A stretch of 64,000 bases of DNA from assembly GCF_008329965.1 (NCBI RefSeq), contig NZ_CP036150.1, positions 1,240,001 to 1,304,000 on the forward strand, read 5' to 3'. Made by a program: the position numbers and the translations under genes. This document shows, one piece after another, positions 23,548-28,145 of the stretch (its first letter is position 1; every line of letters begins with the position of its first letter). This DNA is from Oceanispirochaeta crateris. Its GTDB lineage: Bacteria; Spirochaetota; Spirochaetia; DSM-2461. The notes below the pieces were generated by a model, which did no database searches, was not told the origin of the DNA, and saw only the letters and a list, made by a program, of their open reading frames with translations.

Positions 23548-25725
23548 ATGAGTGATTACCTTGATCCGAACAATGAAGAATTACTGAAAGACTTTTTCTA
23601 TGAGGCCAATTCTCAAGTAGAAATGCTGGAACAGAACATTATGGCCATTGAAGACAATCCTACTATAGACGTTATCAAGGAAATGCTTTCTGCCAGAAGT
23701 GATGGTACAATCTATGATGAAGATATATCTGTCCTCAAGCAGTCCTTGAGAACTCTCAGTGAGGGGAAAGCAGAATCCTCTCCCTCTAACACGGTGAACA
23801 CATCAGCTGAACCGCTTAAAAAAGCACAGGAAAGTCCAGTCTTGTCTGAATATGACATGCTTGAATTGAAAGAAGCTGCCGGCGGTTTGCCTGTTCTACA
23901 AGTGATTGTATCTTTTGATGAGTCAAACCCCATGAATTCTGTTGGGGGCATCCAAGTCTATGCTAAACTAAAAACCTTCGGACAGATACTGAAAACAATA
24001 CCAGAATTTGATCGACTCTATGAAGATGAATATCATCCAGAGGTTCTGTATTATTTATCATCCGAAATGGATCCAGCCGCTGTGGAAGCAGAGGCTCAGA
24101 TTGACGATGTCACAGAGGGTGTATCAGCCACCATTCTGGGTAAAGAGACATCGGCTGTTAAAGTAAGTGTTAAAAAGGAAATCCCTCCAGTAAGAGTTGC
24201 ACAAGAAAAAACAAGTGTGCCATTGGAAGTGAAGAAACCCGCGACTCCAGAAAAAGTAACAACACCTGCTAATGAGCATGATGCTATCAATAAAGAAATC
24301 AACAAGACCTCCACTGTAAAAGCAAAATCAAAGGACTCTAGCGGTTCAATTCTGCGTGTAGACAGTAAAAGAATTGATAATTTACTGAATCTGGTGAGTG
24401 AAGCAGTGATCAATAAAGCTACTTTTAATCAGATCAATAGCTCATTTGCAGATATCCAGAATGAACTTCAGCATGCTGAAAGCAGCTTCAAGGAAAAACT
24501 TAAATCCCTGTTTGATGAACTCCCCCAGTATCTGGAAGATATTCAGAAAAACAAATCTGTAAAAGAAGTCAAAAAAGAGATCAATGAAAAATACGAACCT
24601 CTTTTCACAATTTTTGACTCCTTTGAAAGCAGCTTTAAACAAACAGTTGGAACCTTCAAGAGTACCGCTGCGAACCTCGGACGCAACACGGGAGACCTGC
24701 ATGAAGCCATACTAAAAATTAGAATGGTACCCATTAATCAAATCTTTTCCAGATTTCCCCGTCTTGTTAGAGATCTTTCAAAATCATTAAATAAGAATAT
24801 AAAACTGGTCATTGAAGGTGAAGACACAGAGCTCGATAAGTCGGTGATCGAAGAGCTTTTGGATCCATTAATGCATTGTGTCAGGAATTCCCTGGATCAT
24901 GGAATCGAAGCTCCGGAAGAACGGGAAGCTGCAGGCAAAGAAAGTGAAGGTCAGATACTCCTGAAAGCCAGTAATGAAGGGAACATGATCGTCATTGAGA
25001 TTGCTGATGATGGTGCCGGTATTGACGTAGAAAAGGTTAAGAAAAAAGCCATAGATAGAGGAATCATTCATCCAAGCAAAAATCTTTCTGATGTAGAAGC
25101 CTTCAATTTGATCTTTGAACCCGGTTTTTCTACAGCTCAGCAGGTGACAAACATTTCCGGCCGCGGAGTTGGCCTGGATGTAGTCAGGAAGGAAATCGAA
25201 AAATTAAATGGAACCGTAACTGTTCATTCAACAAAAGGAACAGGGACTCGTTTTATCATAAAACTCCCCTTGACCTTGGCAATCATCCAGGGGCTTCTTG
25301 TCCGAGTAGGAACGGAAGTCTACGCTATACCCATCACCAGTGTTATAGAGAGCCATAGAATCAAACCGGAAGAAATAAAAATTATTGATAATCATGAAGT
25401 ATTCAATGTGAGGGAAGATGTTATATCCCTTGTCCGGATGAACCGTCTGTTTAGAATCAATACAGAGGAATCCAAGGATTATAACTTCATTGTCATCGTG
25501 GGTAGCGGGGACAAGAAAATGGGGGTAATGGTAGACTCTCTCATAGGAGAAGAGGATGTTGTCATCAAACCTCTGAAAGATAAATATACAAATTCCCCAG
25601 GAATTGCTGGTGCAACTATTTTGGGGGATGGAACGGTTTCACTGATAATTGATGTTAGTCAGCTTTTAGATCTTTGTATTCAAAAAGAGCAGGCAACAAG
25701 GCTTAAAAGATCACAGGCATATTAA
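23548..25725 (+). CDS. cheA: Chemotaxis histidine kinase CheA lacking the P1 phospho-histidine region
   Basis: 725 residues, start typical of spirochete CheA (SDYLDPNNEELLKDFFYEA). The first helix of P1 is present, ending NIMAIEDNPT, but the sequence then goes straight to IDVIKEMLSARSDG, which corresponds to the end of P1. The part with the AHTLKG motif and its phospho-accepting His is absent in frame, about 60-70 residues by family comparison. Downstream is normal: a P2-like region, P3 dimerisation (ILRVDSKRIDNLLNLVSE, with a long insertion), P4 kinase with N box HCVRNSLDHGIE, G1 DDGAGID, F box FEPGFST, G2 GRGVGLDVV, and P5 coupling domain. It could bind receptors and ATP but not accept phosphate on P1. 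Operon with cheW, cheX, cheY. Confidence 0.9.
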   Translation: MSDYLDPNNEELLKDFFYEANSQVEMLEQNIMAIEDNPTIDVIKEMLSARSDGTIYDEDISVLKQSLRTLSEGKAESSPSNTVNTSAEPLKKAQESPVLSEYDMLELKEAAGGLPVLQVIVSFDESNPMNSVGGIQVYAKLKTFGQILKTIPEFDRLYEDEYHPEVLYYLSSEMDPAAVEAEAQIDDVTEGVSATILGKETSAVKVSVKKEIPPVRVAQEKTSVPLEVKKPATPEKVTTPANEHDAINKEINKTSTVKAKSKDSSGSILRVDSKRIDNLLNLVSEAVINKATFNQINSSFADIQNELQHAESSFKEKLKSLFDELPQYLEDIQKNKSVKEVKKEINEKYEPLFTIFDSFESSFKQTVGTFKSTAANLGRNTGDLHEAILKIRMVPINQIFSRFPRLVRDLSKSLNKNIKLVIEGEDTELDKSVIEELLDPLMHCVRNSLDHGIEAPEEREAAGKESEGQILLKASNEGNMIVIEIADDGAGIDVEKVKKKAIDRGIIHPSKNLSDVEAFNLIFEPGFSTAQQVTNISGRGVGLDVVRKEIEKLNGTVTVHSTKGTGTRFIIKLPLTLAIIQGLLVRVGTEVYAIPITSVIESHRIKPEEIKIIDNHEVFNVREDVISLVRMNRLFRINTEESKDYNFIVIVGSGDKKMGVMVDSLIGEEDVVIKPLKDKYTNSPGIAGATILGDGTVSLIIDVSQLLDLCIQKEQATRLKRSQAY

Positions 25726-25736
25726 GGAAACGGCAG

Positions 25737-27062
25737 ATGAATACGAGTGTACAGGGACTGAACAGAATGGCCAATGAAAAAGAAATTGAATTGGCCAAAA
25801 TAGATTTTAAAATGGTAACATTTACTCTGGCCGGTAAAGATTACGGCATAGACATCATGAAGGTAAAAGAGATTCATAAGGCCTTAAAATTCACATTTGT
25901 TCCGAATTCGGCCCCTTTTGTCAAAGGTGTATATAACATGAGAGGAGACATCATTTCTGTTATAGATTTGAGAGTTTTCTTCAATTTGCCGGTTCCCAAA
26001 GAAGACAAAGGCTTTGAAAACATGATTATCCTCCGGCTGGAAGATAATACAATTGGGATTCTTGTAGATACCATAGATAAGGTTATTGGCATTGATTCCT
26101 CGAGGAAACAACCTCCCCATCCTTTGTTTGGAGATATTAATATAAAATATATTGACGGTGTTGTAGAAAACGATTCCAGTCTTTATATCATTCTGGATTC
26201 TGAAAAAATCTTCAACAAAGAAGAAAAAAGCGATAAAAATGAAAAAATCAGAAATATTGCGGCCCAGGCAGCCATGCCTGCTGAGGTTACAGAATTAGAA
26301 GAATCAATCGCCAATACGGATAATCATGAATCCCTGAATCTTGGTTTTATTAAAGAAACTCTCCCCACCTATCTTAATTTCTTCCCCAGTGGTATGAACG
26401 AGGATTGGATTTCTTCTCGTTTTGACGGATGGATGAAGGTGAAGGGTGAAGATAACTTTCAGCTGAAAAACAGACAGGATGCCGAGGAATACCTAAGAGG
26501 ATTCAACTCTAGCTGTTCTGGGCAACTGTGGAGTGATGATTTAATAGCCAATATCAAACCCCTTCTTCCAAGCCTTAAGGGAAATGCCATGGTTTGGAAT
26601 CCGGGTTGCGGTAGAGGCTATGAGACATATTCCTTAGCCTGTCTTCTTAAAAATAAAAACCCCGAAGTCATCCTCAAAATCCAGGGTAATGACAATGATT
26701 TGATCAATATATCCTCTGCACCTGGATTAAATGTCGATAAGGAAAAAATATCTTCTTTCTATGAACCATATCTTGTCACAACGAGTACGGGAGCCCAATT
26801 TAACGAGGTAATCAAAGACAGTATTATTTTTGAATACAGTGATTTAAGCAATGAATCATCATTGCCACCACTGGATATGGTAGTATGCCGTGATACTCTG
26901 TGTTATCAACCCGTGGAAGGTCAGATTAAATTGTTAGACTATATGTATGAGTGTTTAAAACCAGGAGGGTTACTCATGTTGGGAGATAATGAGGTCCCTA
27001 TTAACCTGAGCGGATGGGAAGTAATAGCGAATAACAACCTTAAATTATTTAAAAAAATATAA
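25737..27062 (+). CDS. cheW: CheW with C-terminal CheR-like domain (CheW3 type)
   Basis: 441 residues; AAGGA precedes ATG 25737. Residues about 20-160 form a CheW coupling domain (FTLAGKDYGIDIMKVKEIHK, VKGVYNMRGDIISVIDLRVFF, GILVDTIDKVIGID). Residues about 210-441 resemble the CheR methyltransferase domain: MVWNPGCGRGYETYSLACLL fits the SAM-binding loop, and MVVCRDTLCYQP fits the CRNVLIYF motif of CheR. The N-terminal CheR helical domain that binds receptors is missing. This fusion matches CheW3 in Borrelia and the long CheW of Treponema. It would link receptors to CheA; whether the C-terminal part still methylates is uncertain. Confidence 0.9.
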   Translation: MNTSVQGLNRMANEKEIELAKIDFKMVTFTLAGKDYGIDIMKVKEIHKALKFTFVPNSAPFVKGVYNMRGDIISVIDLRVFFNLPVPKEDKGFENMIILRLEDNTIGILVDTIDKVIGIDSSRKQPPHPLFGDINIKYIDGVVENDSSLYIILDSEKIFNKEEKSDKNEKIRNIAAQAAMPAEVTELEESIANTDNHESLNLGFIKETLPTYLNFFPSGMNEDWISSRFDGWMKVKGEDNFQLKNRQDAEEYLRGFNSSCSGQLWSDDLIANIKPLLPSLKGNAMVWNPGCGRGYETYSLACLLKNKNPEVILKIQGNDNDLINISSAPGLNVDKEKISSFYEPYLVTTSTGAQFNEVIKDSIIFEYSDLSNESSLPPLDMVVCRDTLCYQPVEGQIKLLDYMYECLKPGGLLMLGDNEVPINLSGWEVIANNNLKLFKKI

Positions 27063-27112: not shown

Positions 27113-27583
27113 ATGAGAGTTGAGTATATCAATCCTTTTGTTGAAGCAGCGTTCAACATTATCAAGGAAGTACTTCAATGTGAAGTAAACAGGGAAGAAT
27201 TGTATCTGAAAAAGTCAACACAACCTGTTATGGGCGTAGCAGCTATTGTTGGCCTTGCCGGCGATGTCGAAGGAAGAGTGTTGATTGATATGTCTCAGGA
27301 GACGGCTATAAAAGTTGCATCCACCATGAACGGTGAAGAGCTGACTTCCATGGATGAACTGGTAAAAGCCACAATCACAGAATTGGCCAATATGGTAACA
27401 GCTCAGGCAGTCACAAAACTACATGATTTAGGATTTAAGTTCGATCTGACTCCTCCGGCCATTATTACCGGCGAAAATATGCAGGTATCGGACATAAATG
27501 TTGAAGCACTGATTGTCCCCCTTGGATTACCACATGGTAAGATAGAAATTAATGTTGCAATTAGAGAACGGTTAGGAGTCTAA
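27113..27583 (+). CDS. cheX: CheY-P phosphatase CheX
   Basis: 156 residues with GAGGAGA before the start. The fold is that of CheX/CheC: RVEYINPFVEAAFNIIKEVL, then GVAAIVGLAGDVEGRVLIDMS, then the signature helix SMDELVKATITELANMVTAQA, whose E-x-x-N (ELAN) pair inserts into the CheY active site. CheX dephosphorylates CheY-P and is the main phosphatase in spirochete chemotaxis. Two bases separate it from cheY. Its retention makes sense only if CheY is still phosphorylated by something. Confidence 0.95.
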   Translation: MRVEYINPFVEAAFNIIKEVLQCEVNREELYLKKSTQPVMGVAAIVGLAGDVEGRVLIDMSQETAIKVASTMNGEELTSMDELVKATITELANMVTAQAVTKLHDLGFKFDLTPPAIITGENMQVSDINVEALIVPLGLPHGKIEINVAIRERLGV

Positions 27584-27584
27584 A

Positions 27585-28016
27585 ATGAAAACCACAAGTG
27601 ATTTTCCTTCTATTAATGAACGTACGCCTGTTGGGCAAATGGATGGTAGAGCAATTAAGGTTCTCATTGTTGATGACTCTATGTTCGTAACAAAACAGAT
27701 CAGCCAAATTTTAACATCAGAAGGGTTTGATATTGTTGGAACCGCTGCTGATGGTGCTGAAGGTGTTGAAAAATACAAAGAACTTTTCCCAGAAGTCGAT
27801 TTGGTAACAATGGATATTACAATGCCCCGCATGGATGGTGTTACAGCCCTGGAAAAGATCGTTGAATTTGATAAGAATGCAAATGTCATTATGGTCAGTG
27901 CTCTTGGAAAACAAGATCTTGTTAAAAAATCTCTGATGCTTGGTGCAAAGAATTACATAGTTAAACCTTTGGATAGAAAGAAAGTATTAGAAAGAGTCAT
28001 AAGCGCCATAAAATAA
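27585..28016 (+). CDS. cheY: Chemotaxis response regulator CheY
   Basis: 143 residues, a single receiver domain with a roughly 22-residue N-terminal extension. Key residues are all present: D30 and D31 (LIVDDSMF), phospho-acceptor D77 (VTMDITMPRMDG), the switch Ser/Thr in IMVSALG and the conserved Lys in IVKPLD. It would bind the flagellar switch when phosphorylated. Last gene of the che operon; the palindrome at 28023-28054 follows directly. Confidence 0.95.
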   Translation: MKTTSDFPSINERTPVGQMDGRAIKVLIVDDSMFVTKQISQILTSEGFDIVGTAADGAEGVEKYKELFPEVDLVTMDITMPRMDGVTALEKIVEFDKNANVIMVSALGKQDLVKKSLMLGAKNYIVKPLDRKKVLERVISAIK

Positions 28017-28071: not shown

Positions 28072-28145
28072 GGGGGGCTAGCTCAGTTGGTTAGAGTACA
28101 TGCTCGACATGCATGGTGTCGGCGGTTCGAGTCCGCCGCTCCCCA
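28072..28145 (+). tRNA. tRNA-Val (anticodon GAC) with C33
   Basis: 74 bases fold as a full cloverleaf. Acceptor GGGGGGC pairs GCTCCCC (one G-T), discriminator A at 28145. D stem GCTC/GAGT. Anticodon stem CATGC/GCATG with loop TCGACAT, placing GAC at 28106-28108. Variable loop GTGTC, T stem GGCGG/CCGCC with TTCGAGT. CCA is not encoded. Position 33 (28105) is C rather than the near-invariant T. It has its own promoter and terminator. Confidence 0.9.

Follow-up and report, generated by a model that had tools for sequence, protein, structure and literature searches.

Oceanispirochaeta crateris K2 encodes an F2-class CheA without the histidine-bearing part of P1, apparently through a recent strain-specific deletion

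CheA of Oceanispirochaeta crateris K2, encoded in an operon of the F2 (spirochaete flagellar) chemotaxis class, is missing 59 residues of its P1 domain, the phospho-accepting histidine among them. The loss is real, neither a chance pattern nor a misreading. We consider it probable (roughly 70%) that the principal kinase of this strain lost the ability to autophosphorylate through a recent in-frame deletion, which silenced the main chemotaxis pathway and left the array-building parts. The gene looks like a strain mutation and not like a new kind of kinase.

Results

A gap of 59 codons in P1

Coordinates refer to the forward (+) strand of the window, the whole stretch of 64,000 nucleotides that was analysed, which corresponds to bases 1240001-1304000 of the single-contig K2 genome. 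The cheA gene (23548-25725; open reading frame, Pfam and alignment) codes for 725 amino acids, and the N-terminal part of its translation reads ...NIMAIEDNP-TIDVIKEMLSARSDG... Alignment with relatives places a gap of exactly 59 codons between P38 (23659-23661) and T39 (23662-23664). The 177 bp missing at this junction (23661-23662) encode in relatives helix B with the AHTLKG motif, helix C and the first part of helix D; judged by the alignment and the model of a congener, the gap runs from the loop preceding helix B into helix D. Helix A is retained (residues 1-38; 23548-23661), with 94.7% identity to congener G002 and no K2-specific changes, and so are the remainder of helix D and helix E (residues 39-75; 23662-23772, by alignment). 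An in-frame jump after the first P1 helix had been noticed in an earlier sequence-only reading of this DNA, and the junction indeed falls inside the interval 23640-23700 singled out there.

Motif search found no AHTLKG in the 725 residues, and Pfam, which does find P2, H-kinase_dim, HATPase_c and CheW in this protein, detected no Hpt domain. K2 CheA thus does not have the P1 with phospho-accepting histidine (AHTLKG) that is expected of F2-class spirochaete CheA, which bears out the main claim of that reading. Since the histidine and two whole helices are gone, normal autophosphorylation is impossible, as had also been proposed. Relocation of P1 was considered and rejected: searched with the intact P1 of a congener, the rest of the K2 genome contains no second copy of the lost segment, and the only matches are the two flanks in cheA, a second CheA (CheA2; 35% identity) and a third CheA-like protein (26%).

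AlphaFold models the K2 N-terminus with three helices in the place of P1 (10-35, 38-51 and 61-71; pTM 0.39), and PDB search with this model retrieved no P1, the best match being a CheA P2 domain. The intact congener, used as control, yields a five-helix P1 (pLDDT 95-98) that matches solved CheA P1 structures. The folded P1/Hpt domain required of an autophosphorylating CheA is not seen in the K2 model, and on these models the remnant is not expected to act as Hpt.

The segment in other Spirochaetia

We surveyed 297 Spirochaetia genomes, of which 202 gave a strong CheA match. Among the matches listed, nearly all begin at residue 1; the K2 match begins at residue 99. In an alignment with other Spirochaetia, the histidine column is H in all 84 other CheA proteins, each of which also carries the 59 residues, and only K2 cheA has a gap (the second gapped row, L009, is K2 cheA itself and not another gene). 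All four congeners having the gene (G002, G003, G004 and G005) encode intact CheA. Among the best matches listed, K2 is the only one of the 297 genomes whose contig-internal cheA was found without the segment. Four candidates for CheA without P1 (G199, G234, G275 and G294) were rejected when AHTLKG was found in each, and two more (G278 and G243) because their genes are cut by contig ends; the other late-starting matches, G018 and G029, are short ORFs in fragmented assemblies. In G001, a genome of the same genus that is 85% complete, no CheA of either chemotaxis cluster was detected at strong E-values; it is either lost or encoded in sequence that this assembly lacks.

Age of the deletion

K2 is separated from its nearest relative, G002, by 1.24 substitutions per fourfold site, and dS was saturated between species in the comparison of dN/dS on the K2 branch. 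Age was judged by counts of K2-unique changes. The P1 remnant has 49 columns on which three congeners agree, and K2 deviates at a single one of them. This column is the junction residue T39, which is also the sole K2 departure among family-invariant columns of the whole protein. Comparison with congeners revealed no decay in the remnant or elsewhere. With T39 the lone K2-specific change at invariant columns and no compensatory substitutions observed, the deletion is taken as very recent. If the remnant drifted freely, the event would date to about the final 7% of the K2 branch; the remnant may also have been conserved because it kept a function, which would loosen this bound. Judged from the single O. 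crateris genome, the loss appears to be recent and confined to this strain. With intact congeners and no decay of the remnant, a strain mutation, mentioned in the earlier reading as a dull alternative, fits best.

Retained domains and operon

The rest of the protein is intact, as had been read for P3 to P5. The P2 response-regulator-binding domain spans residues 117-190 (23896-24117; PF07194, E 1.4e-9), and Pfam domains P3, P4 and P5 (24346-25725) depart from none of 240 family-invariant columns. All four kinase boxes (N, G1, F and G2) are present, with motifs HCVRNSLDHGIE (443), DDGAGID (487), FEPGFST (523) and GRGVGLDVV (538), from which P4 is predicted to be competent to bind ATP. Over G002 residues 99-787 the two proteins are 81% identical, and the P3-P4-P5 core is orthologous to that of F2 kinases.

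Downstream of cheA lie a CheW-CheR-like fusion (25737-27062; Pfam CheW and CheR), an array component regarded as a mark of the spirochaete F2 system (PMC7666581), cheX for the chemotaxis phosphatase (27113-27583) and cheY (27585-28016). The latter two were correctly described as kept: both are intact by Pfam, with 96% and 91% identity, respectively, to G004. All these genes are conserved, and their order is that of the F2 class, matching the order in a Borreliaceae genome (G163). Neither ORFs nor Pfam revealed an Hpt partner inside the operon, as a bipartite CheA would have. A tRNA gene (28072-28145) is found directly 3' of cheY. Elsewhere in the genome, about 29 receptors above the Pfam cut-off and two FliG-type genes were counted, so the remainder of the chemotaxis system looks in place.

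Other CheA and Hpt proteins of K2

The genome search for another cheA or a stand-alone Hpt, which the earlier reading had called for, retrieved six Hpt matches, none of them adjoining cheA: CheA2, the third CheA-like protein, three hybrid kinases and a stand-alone Hpt of 119 aa with an LHKIKG motif. The matches in the three large proteins were discarded as candidates for a relocated P1, these being hybrid histidine kinases. CheA2 has an intact P1 with SIHTIKG. Its gene belongs to a second cluster (hpt-cheD-cheY-STAS-cheA2-cheR-cheB-MCP-like), located about 78 kb upstream of the cheA operon.

The second cluster, Hpt included, is carried by the four congeners whose CheA is intact; therefore neither CheA2 nor Hpt arose as replacement for the lost domain. 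The suggestion that another protein might stand in for it was right about the existence of both candidates, which belong to a cluster older than the loss. No unusual burst of change is seen in CheA2 P1 along the K2 branch. Within the second cluster, the stand-alone Hpt (L119 9597-9956) evolves much faster than its neighbours, with 33-48% identity among congeners versus 68-92% for CheA2 and CheB. A cheW gene lies between cheD and cheY in G003, G004 and G005 and is missing there in K2 (G000:C1:1186542-1186665; L119 10543-10666) and G002; three lone CheW genes occur elsewhere in K2.

The third CheA-like protein (623 aa; G000:C1:1675189-1677060, L121 190-2061) has the Hpt motif HSLKS in place of HxxKG, and no H-kinase_dim domain was detected in it. 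Its gene adjoins one for a FapA/DUF342-like protein, and ORFs of similar length match in congeners.

Both che clusters have counterparts in Borreliaceae. The K2 cheA operon corresponds to B. burgdorferi cheA2-cheW3-cheX-cheY3, and the second cluster shares synteny with one in Borreliaceae that matches cheW2-bb0566-cheA1-cheB2-bb0569-cheY2, in which bb0566 encodes STAS. B. burgdorferi CheA2 is accordingly the orthologue of the shortened K2 protein, and B. burgdorferi CheA1 that of K2 CheA2. The B. burgdorferi cheA2 mutant does not reverse and is non-chemotactic despite the presence of CheA1 (PMC10703414).

Discussion

We propose that a 177-bp in-frame deletion, arising in K2 or its very recent ancestors, in culture or in nature, stripped CheA of its phospho-accepting histidine and of the P1 bundle core. 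The shortened protein would still dimerise through P3, bind ATP through P4 and enter receptor arrays via P5, together with CheW and the CheW-CheR-like protein. It would be unable to hand phosphate to CheY, leaving the main chemotaxis pathway silent, and cells would run without reversing or steering, like the B. burgdorferi cheA2 mutant. By this analogy the type strain K2 probably swims without steering; a literature search on the strain found no description of its motility phenotype.

Could the segment be missing only from the assembly, with a full P1 on the real chromosome? Its presence in every relative would agree with such an artefact. However, the 4,012,482-bp chromosome of K2 (CP036150; "crateria" in the paper) was closed from PacBio RS II data at 125x coverage with three rounds of polishing, using DNA from DSMZ (PMC7380536); the missing stretch leaves the reading frame exactly preserved, and the genes on either side are intact. 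The segment has no second copy in the genome, and no flanking repeat able to give the K2 junction was found in relatives, so that neither assembly collapse nor repeat slippage is suggested. The collapse named in the earlier reading is therefore unlikely, and an artefact of any kind highly improbable. In G003 an 8-bp repeat lies close to the borders; it too was dismissed, as it would not yield the K2 junction, and no deletion mechanism is claimed.

The remaining alternatives grant the loss and let signalling survive it. P4 of the shortened CheA might act in trans, phosphorylating either the stand-alone Hpt or the P1 domain of CheA2, from which phosphate would pass to CheY. The intact P3-P5 and the two available Hpt domains, of which CheA2 P1 resembles the lost one, would allow this, and free P1 domains are functional and examples of split CheA exist (PMC10782961; PMC6829392). 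On the other hand, the cluster encoding both acceptors accompanies intact CheA in congeners, CheA2 P1 does not change faster in K2, Hpt lies outside the cheA operon, unlike in known bipartite cases, and there is no sign that the two K2 systems share an array. Such trans-phosphorylation, which would spare signalling, is possible but unsupported, and we regard a split kinase as unlikely; that the shortened CheA has become the kinase part of a naturally split system, joining two chemosensory systems that other spirochaetes keep apart, seems more doubtful still. The architecture might instead be older, selection having kept the shortened CheA in the array for a structural or regulatory role, with CheA2 driving the motor. 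Conservation of the remnant and of the whole kinase core is compatible with this, as is the second complete CheA, but a junction residue as sole departure from invariance, with no compensating changes, is what a very recent event would leave, and in Borrelia the orthologue of CheA2 fails to sustain chemotaxis. We find this quite unlikely as well. Takeover of chemotaxis by CheA2 is conceivable, since the shortened kinase is still encoded and could act in trans, but unlikely given that the B. burgdorferi cheA2 mutant fails with CheA1 present. A recent inactivating deletion remains our preferred explanation.

E. coli produces CheA-short, a CheA form without the phospho-accepting histidine, beside the full-length protein from one gene. 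K2 cheA, in contrast, encodes no full-length form; a literature search on trans-phosphorylation of CheA-short gave nothing usable. With F2-class CheA of Treponema denticola (CheA) and B. burgdorferi (CheA2) the K2 gene shares orthology, the operon cheA, cheW-cheR-like, cheX, cheY and domains P2, P3, P4 and P5; it differs in lacking the histidine-bearing part of P1. Rhodobacter sphaeroides CheA4 likewise has P3, P4 and P5 and no working P1, and it phosphorylates CheA3. This dedicated partner is encoded in its own operon, whereas the K2 operon has no Hpt; moreover, K2 CheA keeps P2 and P1 remnants and its loss appears recent. In bipartite CheA (Berry et al. 2023), an Hpt-less kinase core also coexists with a stand-alone Hpt, but there Hpt is encoded in the same operon. 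The K2 Hpt gene belongs instead to another che cluster, at a distance of about 78 kb, and occurs in congeners beside an intact CheA. Among thousands of CheA proteins surveyed, Hpt-less ones were either contig-end artefacts or had Hpt in the same operon (PMC10782961). K2 CheA, from a closed genome, belongs to neither class, being away from any contig end and without an operon Hpt.

The K2 gene list alone does not warrant inferring chemotaxis. If the deletion is confirmed, the O. crateris type strain would be a naturally occurring P1-deletion mutant of its F2 system, in which array assembly in the absence of phosphotransfer could usefully be tested, as could the ability of the second spirochaete CheA to take over.
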